This document shows positions 1-20,032 of a DNA stretch of 23,572 bases, piece by piece. Source of the stretch: a virus. The stretch covers positions 1 to 23,572 of the IMG/VR virus record IMGVR_UViG_3300030061_000188. One strand, 5' to 3'. The notes below the pieces were generated by a model, which saw only the letters and a program-made list of their open reading frames with translations, had not been told where the DNA came from and made no database searches. Numbering within the stretch: position 1 is the stretch's first letter; each line of letters opens with the position of its first letter. Both the position numbers and the translations under genes were made by a program.

Positions 1-3000
1 GACCACCAACAAGGGTGTTGAGTGTGCCTGTGGTTACTGATTGACCTGCGTTAAAACCTACTGCTGTATTATATCCAAACCCATCATAATTTAATGTAGA
101 TAATGTAGCGTTTCCGACTGCTGTATTTCTACCGCCTGTATCTTCTGTACTTAATGCTTCTTGTCCTATCGCAACATTGTTACTTCCTGTTGTAAGTGCA
201 TCACCTGCAAGACCACCCATAATCTGATTGCCTGTACCAGTAGTCATTGCTTTACCAGCATGATAACCAACTGCTACGTTATAGCTTTGTCCATCTGCTG
301 GTTCTAATGTTTCTAACGCTTTATAACCTATAGCTACTGCACCATCACCATCTATGTTGGTATCTAACGCTTTATAACCAACTGCTACGTTAAATTGCCC
401 AGTTGTATTTGCCGATAAAGCCTCAACTCCAATAGCAACATTTTGTGTACCAGTTGTTCCTGCAAACAAAGCCGCTCTGCCGACAGCAGTATTTTCTCCT
501 CCTGTAGTAAGTGCTGACCCTGCTATAGAACCAATAAGTGTATTATGACTAGCAGTAGTTTGAGCATCACCAGCAAGGCCACCGATTAGAGTGTTCTCTG
601 TGCCTGTGGTTACGTTTACACCAGCCGCATAACCAACAGCAGTGTTATAGTTATCTGTAGCTGTTGTAAAGTTTTGACTAAATAAAGCACCTTGACCAAT
701 AGCAGTAGCCCTAGAACCTTTTGTATCCGAACTTAAAGCATGAAATCCAAGTGCTACGTTATAGTCTGCATCCGTTAGTGCATCACCTGCTAGGCCACCA
801 ATAAGCGTGTTGCTTACGCCTGTGGTTACATCGTTACCTGCATTATGTCCTACCGCTACGTTGTAAGTGTCTGTAGCAGTCGTAAAGTTTTGTGTATTTA
901 AAGCTCCGTTTCCTACTGCTGTTGACTTACTACCTAGAGTATCTGTAGCTAAAGCAGACCTACCTAAAGCAACATTGTCATCTGCGTCAGTTAGAGCATA
1001 ACCTGCATTAGATCCGTATAAAACATTATCTATACCTGTTGTTGTACTTCTACCTGCTTCATATCCTACGGCTGTGTTATTAGCAGCAGTTGCTGTTGTA
1101 AAGTTTTGGGATATTAAAGCATTTCTACCAATGGCTACATTACGAGAACCTAAAGTATCTGAGCCTAAAGCCGCATAACCAATGGCTACATTATAATCAG
1201 CGTCAGTTAATGCGTCACCTGCTAATCCACCTACAATAGTGTTCTGTATGCCTGTGGTTACTGCGCCACCTGCACTATCTCCAACGGCTACATTATAATT
1301 ATCAGTGGCAGTCGTAAAGTTTTGTGCAAGTAAAGCATTTCTACCTATAGCTACAGCTTTACTTCCTAAAGTATCTCCGCTTAAAGCTGAAATACCAACA
1401 GCAGTGTTTCTAGTGCCTGTTGTAATAGCATCACCTGCTAAAGCACCAATTAAGGTGTTTGATATACCTGTGGTTACTGCTCCACCTGCTGAAAAACCTA
1501 CTGCTGTGTTGTAAGTATCACCTGCTGATGGTTCCATTGTTTGAAGTGCGCCTGAACCTACCGCTGTGTTTCTATCTCCATCTACGTTAGTTGCAAGAGC
1601 ATTGTACCCTAAAGCAGTATTGTTATCTCCTGTTGTATTAGCAGATAAAGAACCATATCCAATGGCTGTGTTTCTTTCTGAAGTTGTTGCTGCGCCTAAA
1701 GAATTATAACCAACCGCTACGTTTTTCATACCTGTTGTAAGGGAATCGCCTGAAAGACCTCCAATGAGAGTGTTTTCAACGCCTGTGGTTATTTCTTTAC
1801 CAGCAGACCTGCCTACGGCTGTGTTGTAAACATTTGTAGCTGTCGTAAAGTTTTGTTTTTGTAATGCAGCACCACCAACAGCAACACTATTACTTCCTAA
1901 TGTGTCAGCCGATAAAGCAGTTTGACCCACAGCAACGTTATCATTTCCTTCAGTTACTGCATCACCAGATTCATATCCTACAGCAACATTGCCTGAACCT
2001 ACAGTGTTTGAGCGTAAAGCATCTAAACCCACTGCAGTATTGTTTCCACCAGTTGTAGCTAAACGCAAAGAATCGTGTCCTACTGCAACGTTATTTGTTG
2101 CTGTAGTACTTGTAAGTAAAGCGTTTTGTCCAACGGCTGTGTTCTGACTTGCAGTTGTATTATTAGCTAATGCGTTTTCTCCCACCGCTACGTTGTTTGA
2201 GCCAGTACTATTATCTGTTAAAGCAGATTTACCTATTGCTGTATTAGCTCCACCAGTTGTAATAGCATCACCTGCTAAACCACCTATCAAAACATTATTA
2301 ATGCCTGTGGTTACTGAAAGACCTGCTCCATAACCTACCGCTGTGTTGTAAGAGTCAGTAGACGTTGTAAAGTTTTGAGATTTTAATGCCTGAAGACCTA
2401 CAGCTACGTTTCTATCGCCCTGTGTATCAGCACTTAATGAATCATAACCTATGGCTACGTTACTACCACCAGTTGTAATAGCATCACCTGCTAAACCACC
2501 TATCAAAACATTATTAATGCCTGTGGTTACTGAAAGACCTGCCTGAGAACCTACAGCAGTGTTATAAACATTAACCGCAGAACCACCTGATGTGTTTTGA
2601 TTAACTAACGCTTGATTACCTATAGCTACGTTATTTTGACCTACATCTTCTGTTGATAGTGCAGCATAACCTACAGCTACGTTTGACCCTCCAATAGTTA
2701 AAGCATCACCTGCTAGTCCACCCATTATAGTATTATTAACACCTGTGGTTACGTTTACACCAGCTTGAAAGCCAACAGCTACGTTATAAGAATCTGTACT
2801 TGTAGTAAAGTTTTGTGCAGCTAGCGCATCAGTACCAATAGCAACGTTTCTATCACCTTGCGTATCAGCACTTAGTGCATTAAATCCTAATGCCACATTA
2901 TTATCACCAGTAGTAAGTGCATCTCCAGCTAAACTACCCACAAGGGTGTTTCTTACGCCTGTGGTTACTGATAGACCTGCATCATATCCAACAGCTACGT

Positions 3001-5461
3001 TGTAAGAATCACTACTAGTAGTAATGTTTTGTGTTTTTAAAGCACGATAACCAATAGCAGTAGCTCTATGACCTCTTGTATCTGCTGACAATGCTTCATA
3101 GCCTATAGCAGTATTAGCTGCTCCATCAGTGTATGCATCCCCAGAAAGTCCACCGACAAAGGTATTTACTGTACCTGTGGTTACTGATAACCCTGCTTCA
3201 TATCCTAGTGCTGTATTGTAAGAATTAGTAGCTGTTGTGAAGTTTTGTGCATATAATGCATTTGTACCAATAGCTGTAGAACGACTACCTAAAGTGTCTG
3301 AACCTAAAGAACCCACACCTAATGCAACATTATAGTCAGCGTCAGTTAAAGCATCGCCTGATAGAGCGCCTATCAAAACATTATTAATGCCTGTAGTTAC
3401 TGCTTGACCAGCTCCATAACCAACGGCTGTATTGTAGGCAGTTGTGGCAGTAGTAAAGTTTTGAGTTTCTAATGCAGAAGCACCAACAGCTACAGACCGT
3501 TTTCCTAAAGTATCAGCAGATAAAGCGAAAGCTCCTAGTCCTGTATTAAATTCACCTGTGCTTATTTTGTCTGCTGCTGCGTAACCTACAAATGTATTAT
3601 AATCACCTGTTGTTATATCATTACCAGCTTCGTCACCTACAGCTACGTTGTAGTTACCCCCTGATGCAATGTTAGCACCTGCGTTAACACCTGCTCTAAA
3701 GTTAGATGTACCTGATGTATTGGTAGACATACCATCTGATACAGATATTCCTGTAATGTCTATGCCTGTAGAGGTTGTGGCTAGTTTGGCTGCGTTGTCG
3801 TGATAAAGTGTGACTGAACCATTTGCAATAGCATATAAGTAATTCTCAAAAGTACTTGGATTGTTAATCCTGACGTTAGCACCCGATAATAGTAAATCAC
3901 CAGTTCCAGCATCTTTTATGTAGCTATTTGTCCCATCATGGTAAATTTCTAGGTCAGACCCAGCACCGAAGATAGCCTTTGCATTATCAGCAAATGTAGC
4001 GTTACCAGCGTGAGCAGTAGTAGATGCAAAATCAACTGCACCATCAATATCCACCACGTCTAGGTTAGTTGTGCCGTCTACATCTATGTCACCTGAAATA
4101 TCTAGTGAGGCAAATGTACCTATACCTGCTGTTACATTACCTATTGTACCACTAAATACTTCAGAACTATTTGTAGCAGCAGTTAAGAATGTAAATGCAG
4201 ATGCACTATCATCATAACCAAAGAAACCTACCCTTGCTGCAGAACCATCGTGGTATCTAAACTCAATACCTCTATCTTTATTATCATCAGAGCCTGGAGC
4301 AGAGTCACCACCTAAAGTAAAAATAGGATCATCTATAGTAACAGTAGTACTGTTTACAGTTGTAGTTGTACCATTAACAGTCAAGTCTCCTGTAACAGTT
4401 AAGTTATCATTTACTGTAGTTTCAGATGTAGTGTGACCAATAGATACAGGTACACCAGAGGTTGCTGTACCAATAGTAATGCCATTTGTTGTGTTTGAAT
4501 TATCAATGCTTAATGTAGATGTACTGTCTATATCTATAGTAGATGCATCAATATCAACAGTTCCATCAACATTAAGATCTCCTGCTATGTCTACATCTGA
4601 GCCAAATACAGCATTACCAGTAAGTGCCATTCCTCCAGTCATTACTGTACCATTTGATGCATTTATATCTAATGTAGCTGTATCGATTTGTACTTCTGAG
4701 TCAGCAGCAATGTCCATTTGACCATCTGCACTTGAGTGAATAGAAATAGCACTGTCACGGAACAGTATTTTTTTATCTGTAGCGACAAGCATATCCTCTG
4801 CTAAACCATCAATGTAAGCAGAGCCATCTATATAAATATTACGCCATTGTTGTGTAGAACTACCTAAGTCATATGTGTCATCGTCATCAGGAATAATGTG
4901 AGAGTCTACATCTGCACCAAATACAACATTGTCTGATGCACTGTCTCCTAATGTAAGTGTACCACCATTAAATGTACTAGTACCTGTAACAGTTAAGTTA
5001 CCACCTACTGCTAGATTGCCAGATATATCAGCAGCACCATTTATATCTACAGTAGTAGCAGCTATCTGTATTTCTGTGTCAGCTACAAGATCAAGCTGTC
5101 CATCTGCTGAAGAGTTAATATATATTGCTGTATCACGGAACTGTATTTTTTCTGTAGAAGCTACAAGTATATCATCAGAGAATTCAAAGTAATCTTCGTC
5201 TTCCATCCATATTAATACACCATCATTTGACTCACCATCAAATGTTACTGTTATATCTGTACCTGCTGTAGCGTCACCAATAGTAATAGAAGTACCAAGT
5301 AACTTAGTTATTGGGCCACCTTCACCTGTAGTATTATCGTGTGTGTGTCCTGATGATGCAGCAAAAGCAGCTAGTAACTGATCAAATTCATTGTTACTAT
5401 CTGCAGCTTGTATTACATCTCCATCAGTATACGAAGACTGTCGTGTATAATTTGCTCCCAT
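1..5461 (-). CDS. Giant tail fibre / adhesin-like protein, C-terminus beyond window
   Basis: One frame starts at ATG 5461, directly after the TAA of the upstream tail gene, and stays open to the left edge (1820 codons, no stop in the many lines checked). Residues 1-60 include YTRQSSYTDGDVI and GHTHDNTTGEGGP, an N-terminal type I associate with marine phage fibres and which probably docks on the tail. Residues 60-270 hold two copies of a beta-rich module. Residues of about 370-560 contain GGDSAPGSDDNKDRGIEF, VGFFGYDDSASAFTF and KAIFGAGSDLEIYHDG, modules I recall from cyanophage and marine phage fibres. From about residue 590 on, the protein is a long array of NTAVGYNAG / TTG / NTLVGGLAGD rungs, like the YadA head or Hep_Hag beta-roll. 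The likely role is host receptor binding as a trimer. The C-terminal tip, possibly with an intramolecular chaperone, is not in the window. The family name is inferred from motifs. Confidence 0.85.
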   Translation of the reverse strand, partial: MGANYTRQSSYTDGDVIQAADSNNEFDQLLAAFAASSGHTHDNTTGEGGPITKLLGTSITIGDATAGTDITVTFDGESNDGVLIWMEDEDYFEFSDDILVASTEKIQFRDTAIYINSSADGQLDLVADTEIQIAATTVDINGAADISGNLAVGGNLTVTGTSTFNGGTLTLGDSASDNVVFGADVDSHIIPDDDDTYDLGSSTQQWRNIYIDGSAYIDGLAEDMLVATDKKILFRDSAISIHSSADGQMDIAADSEVQIDTATLDINASNGTVMTGGMALTGNAVFGSDVDIAGDLNVDGTVDIDASTIDIDSTSTLSIDNSNTTNGITIGTATSGVPVSIGHTTSETTVNDNLTVTGDLTVNGTTTTVNSTTVTIDDPIFTLGGDSAPGSDDNKDRGIEFRYHDGSAARVGFFGYDDSASAFTFLTAATNSSEVFSGTIGNVTAGIGTFASLDISGDIDVDGTTNLDVVDIDGAVDFASTTAHAGNATFADNAKAIFGAGSDLEIYHDGTNSYIKDAGTGDLLLSGANVRINNPSTFENYLYAIANGSVTLYHDNAAKLATTSTGIDITGISVSDGMSTNTSGTSNFRAGVNAGANIASGGNYNVAVGDEAGNDITTGDYNTFVGYAAADKISTGEFNTGLGAFALSADTLGKRSVAVGASALETQNFTTATTAYNTAVGYGAGQAVTTGINNVLIGALSGDALTDADYNVALGVGSLGSDTLGSRSTAIGTNALYAQNFTTATNSYNTALGYEAGLSVTTGTVNTFVGGLSGDAYTDGAANTAIGYEALSADTRGHRATAIGYRALKTQNITTSSDSYNVAVGYDAGLSVTTGVRNTLVGSLAGDALTTGDNNVALGFNALSADTQGDRNVAIGTDALAAQNFTTSTDSYNVAVGFQAGVNVTTGVNNTIMGGLAGDALTIGGSNVAVGYAALSTEDVGQNNVAIGNQALVNQNTSGGSAVNVYNTAVGSQAGLSVTTGINNVLIGGLAGDAITTGGSNVAIGYDSLSADTQGDRNVAVGLQALKSQNFTTSTDSYNTAVGYGAGLSVTTGINNVLIGGLAGDAITTGGANTAIGKSALTDNSTGSNNVAVGENALANNTTASQNTAVGQNALLTSTTATNNVAVGHDSLRLATTGGNNTAVGLDALRSNTVGSGNVAVGYESGDAVTEGNDNVAVGQTALSADTLGSNSVAVGGAALQKQNFTTATNVYNTAVGRSAGKEITTGVENTLIGGLSGDSLTTGMKNVAVGYNSLGAATTSERNTAIGYGSLSANTTGDNNTALGYNALATNVDGDRNTAVGSGALQTMEPSAGDTYNTAVGFSAGGAVTTGISNTLIGALAGDAITTGTRNTAVGISALSGDTLGSKAVAIGRNALLAQNFTTATDNYNVAVGDSAGGAVTTGIQNTIVGGLAGDALTDADYNVAIGYAALGSDTLGSRNVAIGRNALISQNFTTATAANNTAVGYEAGRSTTTGIDNVLYGSNAGYALTDADDNVALGRSALATDTLGSKSTAVGNGALNTQNFTTATDTYNVAVGHNAGNDVTTGVSNTLIGGLAGDALTDADYNVALGFHALSSDTKGSRATAIGQGALFSQNFTTATDNYNTAVGYAAGVNVTTGTENTLIGGLAGDAQTTASHNTLIGSIAGSALTTGGENTAVGRAALFAGTTGTQNVAIGVEALSANTTGQFNVAVGYKALDTNIDGDGAVAIGYKALETLEPADGQSYNVAVGYHAGKAMTTGTGNQIMGGLAGDALTTGSNNVAIGQEALSTEDTGGRNTAVGNATLSTLNYDGFGYNTAVGFNAGQSVTTGTLNTLVGG
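26..3400 (-). repeat. In-frame 216-bp (72-codon) super-repeat array in the fibre gene
   Basis: The codons for TTG at the rung boundary, seen on the plus strand as variants of gcctgtggttac, begin at 602, 818, 1034, 1250 and 1466, then 1781, then 2303, 2519, 2741, 2957, 3173 and 3389. Nine of the spacings are exactly 216 bp; 2519 to 2741 is 222, and the block 1466-2303 is irregular. A further copy is at 26. Each 72-residue unit holds about four beta-roll rungs of the NVALG / STAVG / NVAVG / NTLIGG kind, plus a conserved QNFTT turn (gtaaagttttg on the plus strand). Because the spacing is a multiple of three and the frame stays open, this is protein architecture rather than a DNA element. Confidence 0.9.
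2250..2542 (-). repeat. Exact 77-nt duplication one repeat unit apart
   Basis: Positions 2250-2326 and 2466-2542 are identical over 77 nt. The offset is exactly 216 bp, and the match breaks on both sides (t/a before, t/c after). A shorter piece of the same sequence recurs near 3370-3393. Neighbouring units share the protein pattern but differ at many silent positions, so this pair looks recently homogenised by unequal recombination or gene conversion. Confidence 0.9.
4658..5167 (-). repeat. Duplicated N-terminal module of the fibre
   Basis: Fibre residues of about 99-142 (5036-5167) and 225-268 (4658-4789) repeat the same pattern. The first has LVASTEKIQFRDTAIYI, SSADGQLDLVADTEIQI and TTVDING; the second has LVATDKKILFRDSAISI, SSADGQMDIAADSEVQI and ATLDINA. 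The offset is 126 residues. Between them lies a LGSSTQQWRNIYIDG segment. The similarity is at protein level, so the duplication is older than the 77-nt one. Confidence 0.85.
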
Positions 5462-7225
5462 TTATCTTCTAGCTCCTAAATCAAATTCTAATTGAAAACC
5501 TTTTAATGAATATGGAGCAGTTACTCCACCATCATTAACTCTTAATGCTACTGCAAAACCTGAACCTTCTACAGGTTGTCTTACTAAAGGTGTACTTGTT
5601 CCACCGTAGGTTGGCCCACCATATATTGCTATTCCATATATACCAGCAATGTCTGATGAATCTAATGGGTATGCTGCTGGTCTAGCAGACTCAGCACTTT
5701 CATAATCATACCTTACAAATAAGTCTGCGTCAATAGTAGATTCAGGTTTAAAGTTAACTATTACCCTTTGCATATGTTTTCTGATACCAGGGTCATCCAT
5801 AGTTAAATCTGAACTACGATATTTAGCGTTTATTGCTGTTCCGTTAAAGTCGTTACCTTCTTCTTGTCTGTATATGTAGCCATCAAAACCACCATGTAAA
5901 ATAAGTATATTACCCTGTTCAATAAAAGAGTCTGTACACGCAGGTTTAATGCCTTTTATTTTAGAAAACTCATATGCCTGTTGTCCACTTTGTTGTCTTT
6001 TAAGTACGCATATAATACCCTCTGTTCTACTTTCTAGCCCTGCAGTTTTAGTAAAAAATAATCTATACTGTGTTTTTTCTGGTATAACTACAGATTCAAA
6101 TACTGAAGAGTCTAATATGTTATCATCAAATATAGACTGAACATTACCACTAATTGTACCAATGTTAACATCACCAATGTTTTGTGTACCAGCAACAGTA
6201 CGTAATCCATCTGGCCCTAAGAAAATTAAATCGCCAGCAAATTCTTGTATAGTCTTACCATTAATGCAACCAATGTTTCTAGTAACAGGAGTAATAGCAA
6301 AGTTAGCAGAAGAACTACCTGTTAATTTAAATATTCTATTTTCACAAAATATAAATAACGCATCACGAAAAACTTTTAAACCGACAATAGTATCATCAAC
6401 TTTAACACTACCTGCACCCTGACCTGAATTAAAACTATCTTCATCAAAAGGTACACTAAATACTAACTCTTGTGGTGTACTTGACATACCTGCGTAGAAC
6501 ATATGTTCTCTATATGAAGATACAATACTTGCTCCTGCTATAGAAGATTCACTTATGTCAGTGGTAGCTAAAGAAGTATTTAAAACTACAGGTGCATTTG
6601 CCCCATCTACAAGAACTATCTTGTCATTACCATCGTAGTTAAATCGTTCAAAAGAATATTTACCTGCGCTAGTTCTTCCTGTATCTCTTACTGTCCATGT
6701 CTCTGATACTACGTTTCTAGCAGAGTCCGTAGAGGCACTGTGTGCAGCAGCAGAAGTACTATTAGTAGAACGAGTAACTCCTGTAAATGTAGTAGCTGTT
6801 TTACCTGTGTACGTAAATTCTTCTGAGTTAATTACAAAACTACCACTAGAACTAAATCCTGTTGTACTTTTAACAGTAACCGTTCCAGAACCTGACAATG
6901 TAGCATCTATAGCTATTGCACTAGACGGCCCTGTACCCAGATCAGTAGAAGCAGAACTCCATATTTTTTCTCCTCTAGCAGCAATTACATTGTTATTAAA
7001 AAATGTAACAAGTAATACTTCTTCAGAAGATGAAGATGTTTGCGGAACTATAGAACGTATGTGCCGTTTAAAACCACTTATTCTTCTATATCCACCCTCA
7101 ACATCAGGCTCAAAATTTTCTAGTTGAAGAGCTTCTCCTGCTCTCATAATAAATGTAGAGCGGTTAGCGACTAGTCCACCTTCACACACAAAAGGAAAGT
7201 GTTGTGTTTGTGCTAAATCAGGCAT
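5462..7225 (-). CDS. Tail nozzle / tail-stabilisation-like structural protein (587 aa)
   Basis: The ORF is complete; its ATG at 7225 overlaps the TAA of the previous gene (TAATG), with AGGATT upstream as ribosome binding site. The N-terminus has LQLENFEPDVEGGYRRISGF, a pattern I associate with podovirus tail accessory proteins that close the portal channel (P22 gp10-like, functionally like the T7 gp12 nozzle). The remainder is beta-rich, with segments such as FCENRIFKLTGSSS, GDLIFLGPDGLRTVAG and ILHGGFDGYIYRQ that would suit beta-propeller blades. Residues of about 109-165 form an Ala/Ser/Thr-rich insert shared with the next upstream gene. It lies between that tail/neck protein and the fibre, which fits a distal tail role. 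The exact family is not proven from sequence alone. Confidence 0.6.
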   Translation of the reverse strand: MPDLAQTQHFPFVCEGGLVANRSTFIMRAGEALQLENFEPDVEGGYRRISGFKRHIRSIVPQTSSSSEEVLLVTFFNNNVIAARGEKIWSSASTDLGTGPSSAIAIDATLSGSGTVTVKSTTGFSSSGSFVINSEEFTYTGKTATTFTGVTRSTNSTSAAAHSASTDSARNVVSETWTVRDTGRTSAGKYSFERFNYDGNDKIVLVDGANAPVVLNTSLATTDISESSIAGASIVSSYREHMFYAGMSSTPQELVFSVPFDEDSFNSGQGAGSVKVDDTIVGLKVFRDALFIFCENRIFKLTGSSSANFAITPVTRNIGCINGKTIQEFAGDLIFLGPDGLRTVAGTQNIGDVNIGTISGNVQSIFDDNILDSSVFESVVIPEKTQYRLFFTKTAGLESRTEGIICVLKRQQSGQQAYEFSKIKGIKPACTDSFIEQGNILILHGGFDGYIYRQEEGNDFNGTAINAKYRSSDLTMDDPGIRKHMQRVIVNFKPESTIDADLFVRYDYESAESARPAAYPLDSSDIAGIYGIAIYGGPTYGGTSTPLVRQPVEGSGFAVALRVNDGGVTAPYSLKGFQLEFDLGARR

Positions 7226-11161: not shown

Positions 11162-14100
11162 TTAATACCTTTTTTCTGTATATAGTTTTACTTTACCAGC
11201 AGTGTATACTATTGGATGTATTATACTACACCATATTTTACCTATTAAATTATCTTTAGCTTTACCTTTAGTTAATATATGTTTAATATGTTGTGTTCTT
11301 TTTTCTGCTAATAAAGAACCTAAACTAGTAAGTATAGTACTTTTTTTCATTCCTCTTACATAAGGTTTAAATAACCAATGATAACCTACTTCATGTACAG
11401 GTGTCAAATACTTTCTTTGATATACATCCCACATTTTCATTGCTTTTGCCCAGTCATCTAAATTAGTTTGTCTGTACATTTCTGTACATACAATTTTAGG
11501 GCCATCTGGCCCATCAGCACCGCCACCATCTTCACCGCCACCTCTTCCTTTTTCACCTACACTTATACTTCCTAAATCTCCTGTGCCTGTACCTGTATTT
11601 GCTTCAGTTCCACCGCCTGAGTATGCAAAACCTCCTCCTGCTTGGTTATCAGATTCGTTTGAGTCAGGCCCATCAGGAACATCAGGAACATCAGGAACAT
11701 TAGTAGTACTACTAAATAAACTAGTAAGAATATTTTTAGGTTGTGCATCTGTTAAAAAATCTTTTGGAGTTTTTTCTCCAGCCGTAAATGTGCCGTTTTT
11801 ATTTTTTGTAACAGTAAAAGTAGAACCAAAAGGATTTTTAGCGTAAAGTTGACCAAGGCTATTACTAAATACTGTATGCTCTGTAACATTACCATTAGAT
11901 AATGTTTTCTCTACTTTACTAACATATCCTGGATTATTAACATCTGGTACTACACCTTCAGGGCCAGTTACTCCAGCTATATTACCACCTTCAGATATTA
12001 CACCACCCATACCTGATCCTGTGTAAGCACCCGAAACTAAACTTGAAGTGTCGTATTTTTTTACTACAGGAGTTTTTACTACAGGAGTTTTTACTGGTGC
12101 AGTTTTTACTGGAGCTTCTAAGAATCTAAAATCTTCTGTTAATGTTGGTGAAGAAGTTATTCCTGTGTCTCCAATACCAATGTCATATCCTACTCCTGCT
12201 GCAGGTGCTGTTGGAGTTAATCCCATTATTTGATTTGTACTCATTTGTTGATTAGATAACTGTTGTGCTGTAGGTACATTTGATGGAGAAGTAGAATACT
12301 GACTTTCTAAGTCTCCTATTGTTTGTGCAGGTGCTGGTGTAGGTACAACTGAAGCTGCAACAGGATCTCCAACAGGTTCTTGAAGTTCAGCAGGTATATT
12401 ACTACTAGTATCAAAATCTGCAGCACCAGGTATATCTTTTACTTGTTGTTGATAGTAACCAAAAGGTGCTGCTATTTCTCCAGACCCATAACTTACCATT
12501 GCTGGTGTGTCAATTCCAAGGGCTGTTTGTGGAGCTTCTACTCCAATATCAAAACCTTGTCCTGCAGCAACAGGTGATGTAGAAGCAGGTGATGTTATTC
12601 CAATATCGTAACCTACTCCTGCTGCAGGTGCTGTTGAAGGTTGTGATGCAGGTTGATAACCACCACCAAAACCTGTCATGCCTGGCATTCCAGTTTGTTG
12701 TCCATATCCTAAATTAAACATATCTAGTTGAGCTTGTGGAGAAAAAGCATTTCCATAGTCATCAGTTTTAACCTCAATACTAGGAGATAAATTAGGTGTA
12801 GTATTATCAGGAATAAATCCTATACCACCAGAAGGTTTCATAGAAGGTTCCATAGGCATACCTAATGTAGGATTTATATTTTTTATATTTGAAGTGTCTA
12901 TCATTGAAGCATCCATAGGCATACCTAACATAGGATCTATACGATCTATAGGTCTACCTACAGCAGCTTTGTTTGAAACAAGTTGATCAAATGTAGGAGG
13001 AGCAACAGGAGTAAAAGGTAGTTTACTTTCTAGTTGTCCTGTGACAGGATTAAACTCTGCAGTAGGCATAGATTTTTGAATAATAGAATCTGCAACATTG
13101 CTAGGTTTTGTACTATCTACTATATTATTACTAGGCGATGCTGGTGTAAATGACTGTCCACTAGTCATTTGTTGATTAGCTATTTGTTGTGGTGTAAATA
13201 CTTGTTTACTAATCATTTGTTGATTAGCTAATTGTTGTGGTGTAAGAGTTAGTGCCGCTCCATATGGATTTATTTCTCCAGGTTTATCTACACTAGGAGT
13301 TCCTGAAACAACTTTATCTGTTGTTTTTGTAAAGCTAGGTGCAATTTTTGCCTGATCTTTAAATGTAAGTTGTTTTGTAGCATTACTAACAAAAGTATTA
13401 ACATTTTCATTATTATTTGTTTCAGTATTTACTGCTGCATTTGTAGCTTGCGTAGCATTATTTTTATATTGTTCTATTTGCTGTGGGTTTAAACCTAATG
13501 CTTTTGCTATAGAGTCTGTTATATTTAATACACTTTTTGCAAATGCACCTCCTATTTTACCTTTAGCAGTAGCTATTGCTGCATCTAATGCTTTTGTTTG
13601 TTCTGTAGTTAAACTTCCTTGAGACTTTCTGGCTTCCATTCTTGCAATGTCTAGTTGAACATCTTTATAGTGAGCAATAGTAGCAATAGTGCCTACAGGA
13701 GGAGCTACAATAGATATAAGACTTAAAGCAATTTTATCAGTGTTAAGCCCTTTTGTATGTTTTGTAGTCATTGCAGAAGTAAATTCTGCATTATTCATAA
13801 CTGAATAATTTGGAGGTGTATGTACTGAACCTACAGGTCTACCTAAACTATCCAGTTCTCCACCATATTCAGGTGTTTCTTTTACTAAAATGTTAGGTTG
13901 TGTAGGAGGTGCTGTACCACCTATTCCAGTGCTAGGATGACTATCAGGATTATTAGGATCATAATAAGTATAACCATCAGGTATAGGATATAAAGGTACA
14001 TTTCCTAAAAAAGCAATAGTCATACTTTCACCTGCAGCGTTTCTATATTCTTTAAATATTATTCTATTTTGACCCATAATTTCCTTAAATGTAGTACGTC

Positions 14101-14782
14101 TATTAACTCTAGTTGGCACTGCAGAAGTAGATAATTGTCTAGTACCTGCAACTCCACCTTCTGCCATTTCTAATGGTTCACCACTTTCTGATACAACAAT
14201 TAAATCTGCCATACCAAAAGGTAACTCTTCATCTTTAGATGCATCACGTTCTTCACCCATTTGACCCATAGATTCCATTTGAGCTAAACCCATTTTAGCA
14301 TCTTGTCTTAATGACATTAATTTATCTAAACCTATATAACGAGTAACATCAGCAGGAAATACAAACTCTCCTTCACTTAACATTGCAGGTATATCATCAG
14401 CAACTTCTTCACGAGAACTACCTGATGGAACAACATTACCTGACTCAGGTTCTATCATGCCACCTTCTTCTTTAAGACCACCATCTTCAAATAATTCCAT
14501 TTGTCTTTTCATCATTGGAGTTCCACCTTTGTTAAATTCTCTTGACACACTTATTTTTATTTCTTTATCACTAAGTTTTTTTACTGCTTTTAATACTTTA
14601 GATAAATTACTACCTTGATACCTATTAACAATATCTTTAAGAAAACTACGTTCTTGCATAGGTAAACTATCTACAACAGTTTTACCTTCTTTCGTACTAA
14701 TCCATTCTTCAAAAGGCTTAGAAGATTTTTCAGATTCTTCTTTTTTTTCTATGTAGTTAATTATATCTTTAAGATCTGCCAT
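11162..14782 (-). CDS. Large composite virion protein (1206 aa)
   Basis: Three parts can be seen. Residues 1-100 are charged and helical. Residues of about 128-175 contain DDIPAMLSEGEFVFPADVTR and GLDKLMSLRQDAKMGLAQME, a motif I know from large virion-associated proteins of many marine phages. The long middle (about 200-1090) is Pro/Ser/Thr/Gln-rich with repeats such as PAAGVGYDIGI, LTPQQLANQQM and LGMPMDAS. The last 110 residues (11165-11493) form a separate helical basic domain starting CTEMYRQTNLDDWAKAMKMW and containing VGYHWLFKPYVRGMKKS. Start ATG 14782 overlaps the stop of the 70-aa gene. Because it lies between portal and scaffold it may be an ejected internal protein or a head-vertex protein; this is inference. 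One hydrophobic stretch near residue 360 (ALSLISIVAPPVGTIATIA) could insert in a membrane. Confidence 0.75.
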   Translation of the reverse strand: MADLKDIINYIEKKEESEKSSKPFEEWISTKEGKTVVDSLPMQERSFLKDIVNRYQGSNLSKVLKAVKKLSDKEIKISVSREFNKGGTPMMKRQMELFEDGGLKEEGGMIEPESGNVVPSGSSREEVADDIPAMLSEGEFVFPADVTRYIGLDKLMSLRQDAKMGLAQMESMGQMGEERDASKDEELPFGMADLIVVSESGEPLEMAEGGVAGTRQLSTSAVPTRVNRRTTFKEIMGQNRIIFKEYRNAAGESMTIAFLGNVPLYPIPDGYTYYDPNNPDSHPSTGIGGTAPPTQPNILVKETPEYGGELDSLGRPVGSVHTPPNYSVMNNAEFTSAMTTKHTKGLNTDKIALSLISIVAPPVGTIATIAHYKDVQLDIARMEARKSQGSLTTEQTKALDAAIATAKGKIGGAFAKSVLNITDSIAKALGLNPQQIEQYKNNATQATNAAVNTETNNNENVNTFVSNATKQLTFKDQAKIAPSFTKTTDKVVSGTPSVDKPGEINPYGAALTLTPQQLANQQMISKQVFTPQQIANQQMTSGQSFTPASPSNNIVDSTKPSNVADSIIQKSMPTAEFNPVTGQLESKLPFTPVAPPTFDQLVSNKAAVGRPIDRIDPMLGMPMDASMIDTSNIKNINPTLGMPMEPSMKPSGGIGFIPDNTTPNLSPSIEVKTDDYGNAFSPQAQLDMFNLGYGQQTGMPGMTGFGGGYQPASQPSTAPAAGVGYDIGITSPASTSPVAAGQGFDIGVEAPQTALGIDTPAMVSYGSGEIAAPFGYYQQQVKDIPGAADFDTSSNIPAELQEPVGDPVAASVVPTPAPAQTIGDLESQYSTSPSNVPTAQQLSNQQMSTNQIMGLTPTAPAAGVGYDIGIGDTGITSSPTLTEDFRFLEAPVKTAPVKTPVVKTPVVKKYDTSSLVSGAYTGSGMGGVISEGGNIAGVTGPEGVVPDVNNPGYVSKVEKTLSNGNVTEHTVFSNSLGQLYAKNPFGSTFTVTKNKNGTFTAGEKTPKDFLTDAQPKNILTSLFSSTTNVPDVPDVPDGPDSNESDNQAGGGFAYSGGGTEANTGTGTGDLGSISVGEKGRGGGEDGGGADGPDGPKIVCTEMYRQTNLDDWAKAMKMWDVYQRKYLTPVHEVGYHWLFKPYVRGMKKSTILTSLGSLLAEKRTQHIKHILTKGKAKDNLIGKIWCSIIHPIVYTAGKVKLYTEKRY
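11669..11700 (-). repeat. 9-bp tandem repeat in the 1206-aa gene
   Basis: About three and a half in-frame copies of a 9-bp unit (catcaggaa on the plus strand) encode VPDVPDVPDGPD in the Pro-rich linker. This is typical slippage-prone linker DNA. Confidence 0.85.
12061..12120 (-). repeat. 15-bp tandem repeat in the 1206-aa gene
   Basis: Four consecutive 15-bp units occur, the first two identical (ttactacaggagttt) and the others diverged. They encode EAPVKTAPVKTPVVKTPVV, a Lys/Pro/Val linker. The unit length is a multiple of three, so copy-number change would keep the frame. Confidence 0.85.
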
Positions 14783-19291: not shown

Positions 19292-19799
19292 GTAACATTT
19301 CCAATGCTTTTTCTTTTGTTTCATCGTTACGTCTAGTCCACCCTTTACCGAAGGTATCAAAGGTAGATAGTTTCTCGTAGAAATTTTGACGTGTGTAATG
19401 CATTTGTTCTATTATATCTTCTGGGTCTACTTCAGCGACAGCCTGTAAAGTCATCGGGCCTATACCACCATCCTGCTCTACACCGACTATGCGTTGCAAA
19501 GCTTTAGCAGATCGTGATACACCTGAATTAACAGCCCAGTCAAATACACAAAGATCAACCCCACTAGGAAGTTGATCACACTTTGCTCTATTCCAATAAT
19601 TTTTTTTATAGATAGGAGCTACATCTTCATGCGTCAAGTCACGCATCTCTTTAGGTGTAGTCTCTCTGCCTACCCATTTATCATAGACTTTTTTAGTGAC
19701 ACCATAATTCGTAATGCCACCTGGATCTTTAGGATGATTTACAAAACCACCTTCGTGTTCAAGTATTATTTCTAAACACGTACTGTAATTGCTCATCAT
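19284..19799 (-). CDS. Endolysin, glycoside hydrolase family 108 lysozyme
   Basis: The enzyme would cleave host peptidoglycan at the end of infection. The N-terminus has EHEGGFVNHPKDPGGITNYG, the classic GH108 signature with the catalytic Glu in EGGF (residue 16). Downstream, DLTHEDVAPIYKKNYWNRAK, LCVFDWAVNSGVSRSAKALQ and DGGIGPMTLQAV match the rest of the lysozyme and the peptidoglycan-binding C-terminal half. At 171 residues it is full length for this family. No signal peptide is visible, so it depends on a holin, which fits the holin-like gene just upstream. Either of two adjacent ATGs (19799 or 19796) may be used; both overlap the stop of the Lys/Gly repeat gene. Confidence 0.92.
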   Translation of the reverse strand: MMSNYSTCLEIILEHEGGFVNHPKDPGGITNYGVTKKVYDKWVGRETTPKEMRDLTHEDVAPIYKKNYWNRAKCDQLPSGVDLCVFDWAVNSGVSRSAKALQRIVGVEQDGGIGPMTLQAVAEVDPEDIIEQMHYTRQNFYEKLSTFDTFGKGWTRRNDETKEKALEMLHG

Positions 19800-20032
19800 T
19801 TTTTCTTCTTCATTACACCGCCTTTAGCGTAACCTTTTTTCTTTTTAGTCATACCACCTTTAGCATAACCTTTTTTCTTCATCATGCCACCTTTAGCAGC
19901 TTTTCTGACTGGTGTTTTTCTTTTATCTGCTCCTCTAGGTTTAGGCATATATTTAACTAGTAGATCTTTAAAATCTAATCCTTTTTCTTTAGCTTCTTTC
20001 TTTAAGCCTTTTAGCCATGCTGGGTCTGCCAT
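19796..20032 (-). CDS. Lys/Gly repeat protein (78 aa)
   Basis: The N-terminal half is a charged helix (WLKGLKKEAKEKGLDFKDLL), while the C-terminal half is made of repeats of the type KKKGYAKGGMM. ATG 20032 has an excellent site (GGAGGAAAG) inside the end of the holin gene. Proteins with KKKGYAKGG repeats are, as I recall, common in uncultured marine phages and have no known function. The strong positive charge suggests binding to nucleic acid, lipid or peptidoglycan; its position inside the lysis block could point to the last two. Confidence 0.75.
   Translation of the reverse strand: MADPAWLKGLKKEAKEKGLDFKDLLVKYMPKPRGADKRKTPVRKAAKGGMMKKKGYAKGGMTKKKKGYAKGGVMKKKK
19810..19903 (-). repeat. 33-36 bp repeats encoding KKKGYAKGG units
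   Basis: Two full units and a partial one (plus strand cattacaccgcctttagcg, cataccacctttagcata, catgccacctttagcagc) encode KGGMMKKKGYA, KGGMTKKKKGYA and KGGVMKKKK. Unit lengths differ by one Lys codon. Confidence 0.8.

Follow-up and report, generated by a model that had tools for sequence, protein, structure and literature searches.

The rolls of YadA-type proteins are built of 14–15 aa coils with an invariant Gly, a rise of 4.8 A and rare loop insertions at one turn, and the roll of BpaC turns by about 5.7 degrees per layer (PMC9543794). YadA-domain proteins are also encountered in the virions of marine phages, where those of cyanophages S-TIM4 (ORF108) and S-SZBM1 and the pelagiphage tail fibers are tied to attachment. 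A role of such YadA-named proteins in host use is supported by the experimental evolution of cyanophage S-TIM4 (PMC6224464) and by lowered metagenomic recruitment at the YadA-bearing end of a pelagiphage-type fiber (PMC3909814). A marine phage fiber combining YadA-like repeats with an S74 end is a kind already known. The open-access papers searched gave no description of a strict four-coil unit, of its occurrence on unrelated attachment modules or of its age. The window analyzed here, a stretch of 23,572 nucleotides (positions 1 to 23,572 of the IMG/VR virus record IMGVR_UViG_3300030061_000188), encodes a tail fiber with such a unit.

Genome Organization and Phage Identity

The genes located to the right of the fiber gene encode a PHROG 5107 protein, an SU10-type adaptor, a P22-like coat protein, a scaffold-like protein (labeled as such by position), the portal, the terminase and a lysozyme. 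The terminase is 81–85% identical to those of Puniceispirillum phage HMO-2011 and Roseobacter phages CRP-345 and CRP-1. Homology of the terminase, coat, adaptor and neighbor gene, together with their conserved order, places the phage among the HMO-2011-like phages, and we infer its host to be a marine alphaproteobacterium. The tail fibers gp43 of HMO-2011 and gp66 of HTVC033P are encoded next after the PHROG 5107 homolog and have an N-terminus of the same type as the window fiber. By this synteny and shared N-terminus, the window ORF is the fiber of a conserved locus whose distal half has been exchanged.

The upstream neighbor gene (PHROG 5107; 5462–7225, minus strand), located between the adaptor and fiber genes, served to find syntenic relatives. 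Both its family and HMO-2011 gp44 carry an amidase label. The protein itself has no Pfam match and shows a weak match to a head-closure family as well, and its homolog in MW202701 is named phage stabilization protein. The amidase label on this protein is probably wrong. Between the scaffold-like and portal genes there is an ORF of 1206 aa without an assigned function (11162–14782, minus strand), with internal 48-bp repeats at 13142–13245 that encode QLANQQMIS-type motifs. A 36-bp imperfect tandem repeat of 2.9 copies (19799–19898) adjoins the lysozyme gene on its upstream side (minus-strand start at 19799) and may encode a lysine/glycine-rich end belonging to a small reading frame.

The Tail Fiber ORF and Its Coil Register

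The fiber ORF (2–5461, minus strand, as are all of its parts below) takes up the left 5.46 kb of the window and contains no stop in 1820 codons, encoding 1820 aa with PHROG tail spike/virion structural matches. Since it runs off the left end of the 24,643-base viral record, its C-terminus is missing. It begins with an N-terminal attachment module common to HMO-2011-like fibers (aa 1–150, MGANYTRQSSYTDGDV..., 5012–5461), followed by a proximal shaft that is mosaic among relatives (aa 151–582, 3716–5011) and a roll entry cap, SGTSNFRAGVNAGANIASGGNYNVAVGDEAGNDITTGDY, kept across fibers with unrelated N-termini (aa 583–621, 3599–3715). A predicted beta-roll array of ~68 coils of 17 aa, including 14 long coils, occupies 2–3649. 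The first-pass annotation had recognized this array at 26–3400, short of its true extent.

From aa 605 on, the fiber consists of 17-residue coils, mostly starting N-[TV]-A-[VIL]-G. The 14 long (D) coils measure 19–23 aa and typically carry QNFTTATxxY. Every fourth coil is usually one of 21 aa, giving 17+17+17+21 = 72 aa, or 216 bp. In order from the N-terminal side, the long coils are those at 3434–3496, 3218–3280, 3002–3064 and 2786–2848 (21 aa each), 2564–2632 (23 aa), 2348–2410 and 1826–1888 (21 aa), 1511–1570 (20 aa), 1295–1357, 1079–1141, 863–925 and 647–709 (21 aa), 281–340 (20 aa) and 71–127 (19 aa), and the intervals separating them are 72, 72, 72, 72, 74, 174, 106, 71, 72, 72, 72, 123, and 71 aa. 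Ten of the 13 intervals span four coils; seven are exactly 72 aa and the three others are units of 74 or 71 aa. Four consecutive exact 72-aa units occur at aa 656–943 (2633–3496). The register is broken in the three intervals with 10, 6, and 7 coils, by blocks of extra coils; five plain 17-aa coils break it at 1991–2245 and two plain extra coils at 1571–1672, and the third such interval includes four coils at 341–544, mostly within the stretch 397–661 shared with L066.

Residue identity within the fiber reached 0.38 at a lag of 72, compared with 0.12 and 0.08 at the adjoining lags of 71 and 73. The coil-to-coil BLOSUM score at lag 4 was 33.2, compared with 22.9 ± 1.4 for shuffled coil order (5000 shuffles, maximum 28.3). 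Tandem Repeats Finder reported no long-period array over the fiber roll region, which would be explained by the window units sharing only 55–72% DNA identity. The 216-bp series of boundary codons noted at first pass (602–1466, 2303–2519, 2741–3389) is real and corresponds to the starts of B-type coils at 595–1459, 2296–2512, and 2734–3382, shifted by 7 bases. The exact 72-codon period claimed with it holds in seven of the 13 intervals and is not universal, given the 74- and 71-aa units and the 10-, 6-, and 7-coil gaps. Coil parsing and the survey described below agree with its description of four rungs with one special QNFTT turn in each unit, and the repeating insertion that it predicted is found in every fourth coil as the long D coil. 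No analysis shows the kink along the shaft that it offered as an alternative, and none bears out the receptor binding that it ascribed to the shaft.

The Four-Coil Register in Other Fibers

Relatives were collected through the neighbor gene, roll peptides and a D-loop DNA pattern, which gave a set of 162 non-redundant fiber ORFs, mostly from uncultured viral contigs. In this set the spacing of long coils was four coils in 514 of 605 intervals. Pairs of 21-aa long coils kept it in 286 of 300 cases and pairs of 19-aa long coils in 102 of 121. The lag-4 signal was absent in 13 fibers lacking long coils, and from such plain 17-aa rolls it follows that the roll itself does not force the period.

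Across 390 exact units, the consensus sequences were NxAVGYxAGxxVTTG for coil A, NTLIGGLAGDALT for coil B, NVAVGxxALSxDTLG for coil C and SVAIGxxALxxQNFTTATDxY for coil D. Coils A, B, and C stay at 17 aa in ~97% of units, with length variation confined to D. The conserved elements are the D loop and the B coil, and high variability is seen at the turn positions of coils A, C, and D. The probes had been drawn from A–D units and from the D loop itself; this sampling exaggerates how conserved QNFTT is and does not select for the spacing. Charge correlations between the ends of the B and C coils were weak (strongest −0.31), and a simple salt bridge between these ends was set aside.

Among 80 neighbor-gene loci, many of them truncated, a roll was found in three and long coils in two of these. 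None of the twelve annotated phage records that matched best, CRP-1 and HTVC111P included, had the four-coil register. A 166-kb viral contig (IMGVR_UViG_3300043539_000897) carries two adjacent giant roll proteins, one of 2674 aa with >100 coils and one of at least 1586 aa with ~70 coils, in which long coils are nearly absent. A genome collection gave seven matches. The best of these was a 3.3-kb contig of Rhodobacteraceae bacterium SB2 (LGRT01000019.1), encoding a roll fiber with a similar entry motif and an S74-like end. This contig may itself be viral, and a bacterial origin was rejected; the contig is possibly of phage or prophage nature, and as such a host lead.

The Missing C-Terminus

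The DNA at the left end of the contig has no exact counterpart in other viral contigs. Two complete orthologs (L163, 1577 aa; L275, 1338 aa), with N-termini 83–87% identical to that of the window fiber, continue from the roll through an exit cap into a Peptidase_S74-like region with a helical end. Pfam S74 was found in all four complete four-coil relatives checked, and an SDxRxK motif in 107 of 121 complete fibers. Contig L242 overlaps the very end of the window and encodes 531 further residues, comprising coils, exit cap and S74-like region; if the window fiber ends likewise, its full length would be ~2350 aa. Judging from these relatives' sequences, the missing C-terminus is likely a Peptidase_S74-type chaperone.

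Age, Probable Exchange, and Proposed Role of the Module

Units are 58.4% identical inside one fiber and 56.6% across different fibers. With these values so close, the A-B-C-D order appears to be old and maintained, and not the product of recent tandem duplication. Exact units were found behind four unrelated N-terminal clusters, and the roll commonly opens with the entry motif AGTSNFRAGVNAGNSIxSGGNYNVVVGDEAGTAxTTGD. DNA matches of the window roll to other contigs lie nearly all at 60–80% identity, apart from three islands: 4–457 (minus strand; 86% identical to L242, whose fiber has a different N-terminal module), 397–661 (91%, L066) and 562–829 (minus strand; 87%, L197). The backbones of L002 and L197 are >90% identical in DNA, yet their distal parts differ. 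Together, the islands, the differing N-termini and the differing distal parts are read as exchange of the distal module and its pieces, and the modular, evolving adhesin-like protein suggested at first pass is supported by the several N-terminal modules, the type-specific residues and the exchange islands. From its distribution among these sequences, the roll of many ocean phages has the look of an exchangeable module that serves for host recognition or as a spacer. Four syntenic fibers (L005, L006, L009, L071) have the N-terminus of the window fiber and no roll; they end in a short conserved tail (A.AIALG), like the ends of HMO-2011 gp43 and HTVC033P gp66, and these tails are alternative distal designs at one locus.

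Our preferred reading, to which we give a probability of about 0.6, is that the array forms the distal shaft of an HMO-2011-like marine podovirus fiber: an A-B-C-D trimeric roll with clasps, a variable surface and an S74 end, subject to module exchange. Three chains would wind into a rigid YadA-like left-handed beta-roll advancing about 4.8 A per coil, in which D, with a turn longer by 2–6 residues, would contribute its three loops to a ring recurring every ~19 A. As conserved elements, the D loop and B coil could serve as inter-chain clasps that hold the register in a very long roll, and the variable residues in the turns of coils A, C, and D may make up a changing outer surface in contact with the host. 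The S74 domain would trimerize the fiber and then be cleaved off. Phages might trade the whole distal module, or pieces of it, and so alter host contact. A further step is suggested tentatively, and we would not lean on it: the A-B-C-D unit may be a distinct, evolutionarily locked component of marine phage fibers, a 72-residue "ruler" that places a ring of three identical loops every four coils and is traded as a module between phage lineages, for multivalent host contact or register control of a kind missing from plain rolls.

It is possible, if somewhat doubtful, that the roll is a rigid spacer only, with the exit cap or another part of the fiber end binding the host. The S74 domains of fibers usually adjoin the working tip, and strong regularity with a conserved D loop and B coil would suit a spacer; the highly variable turn positions of A, C, and D would not, nor would the apparent exchange of roll segments between unrelated fibers. 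We consider it unlikely that the period is a fossil of an ancestral tandem four-coil duplication and in itself without structural or functional meaning. Within- and between-fiber identities of units are nearly equal, the A, B, C, and D coils remain distinct in 390 units, and 19-aa and 21-aa long coils keep the same spacing, although deviating intervals occur and plain 17-aa rolls, those of HTVC111P and CRP-1 among them, are without the lag-4 signal, so that roll geometry does not force the period. The pattern has outlived sequence similarity and is therefore probably under selection.

Predicted Fold and Integrity of the Array

An AlphaFold2 monomer model of the four exact window units, built with 21 relatives, formed a solenoid in which most coils contain two short strands (pLDDT 71, pTM 0.71). 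Two units with 114 relatives, also as a monomer, gave pLDDT 72 and pTM 0.64; this deeper alignment (115 sequences) did not yield a better model or any PDB match. Foldseek, queried with these monomer models of moderate confidence, found no significant match to a solved structure, its best weak PDB matches being other solenoids. Viral predicted structures with similar repeats matched well and are not independent evidence. Sequence searches of the PDB with window, profile and plain-roll queries returned chance matches only, and an NCBIfam search returned no matches. Pfam YadA_head (PF05658) matched weakly in 9 of 22 members (best E 0.05, below the cut-off), with no match in the window's own segment or the full ORF. 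A Gly at coil position 5 was invariant in 99–100% of the 390 units, the coil finder itself requiring a small residue (G, A, S or Y) there.

The YadA-like beta-roll named by the first-pass annotation accordingly stands in part, favored by the two-strand solenoid model and weakened by the missing solved match and the weakness of the Pfam hits. That the fold is another beta-solenoid and not a YadA-type trimeric roll seems quite improbable. The coils of 17 aa and the weak PDB matches to other solenoids, with no solved YadA-type head among the listed fold matches, would be in keeping with it; the single invariant Gly per coil, an insertion site that fits the known roll and the weak YadA_head matches argue the other way. 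A YadA-type trimeric roll is what we infer for the window fiber. If the Gly corresponds to that of YadA-type rolls, both the three residues that the 17-aa coil has in addition and those that D adds to them would lie in or near the turn that takes insertions there. Chance was rejected as the origin of the array, with a lag-4 signal far above the shuffles, and an assembly artifact or collapsed repeat is very improbable. The array does reach the contig end, and assemblies often break at repeats; against this, its units are 28–45% different at the DNA level, no stop interrupts the frame and the architecture recurs in independent contigs.

If the preferred reading is true, many uncultured ocean phages would have in common a host-contact module that is portable and has a structural period of fixed length, one not seen in any of the twelve annotated phage records that matched best and with no solved relative found. 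Such a module would be a clear structural target, a virome marker for the recombination of host-recognition genes, and a natural long self-trimerizing scaffold with evenly spaced loops.

Comparison With Known Systems

Like the YadA-type heads of YadA, BpaC, and UspA1, the window fiber has one invariant Gly per coil, insertions in one turn and, as far as the model goes, two strands per coil. It differs from them in its coil length, with coils of 17 aa and every fourth of 19–23 aa in place of 14–15 aa. Trimeric autotransporter adhesins have a C-terminal membrane anchor, whereas complete relatives of the window fiber end in S74. In the accessible text on cyanophage S-TIM4 ORF108, S-SZBM1 and the pelagiphage YadA proteins, the four-coil unit present in the window fiber is not described.

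HMO-2011 gp43 and HTVC033P gp66 resemble the window fiber in gene position and N-terminus, but their distal part is short, different and without the roll. Pelagibacter phage HTVC111P gp52 and Roseobacter phage CRP-1 gp37 have 17-aa coils of the form N-T-A-V-G-x-x-A-L..., as in the window fiber. Their C-termini match S74, above the Pfam cut-off in HTVC111P gp52 and just below it in CRP-1 gp37; the corresponding end of the window fiber is cut off. Both proteins are without a QNFTT-type D coil and without the four-coil register, and the window fiber has both.
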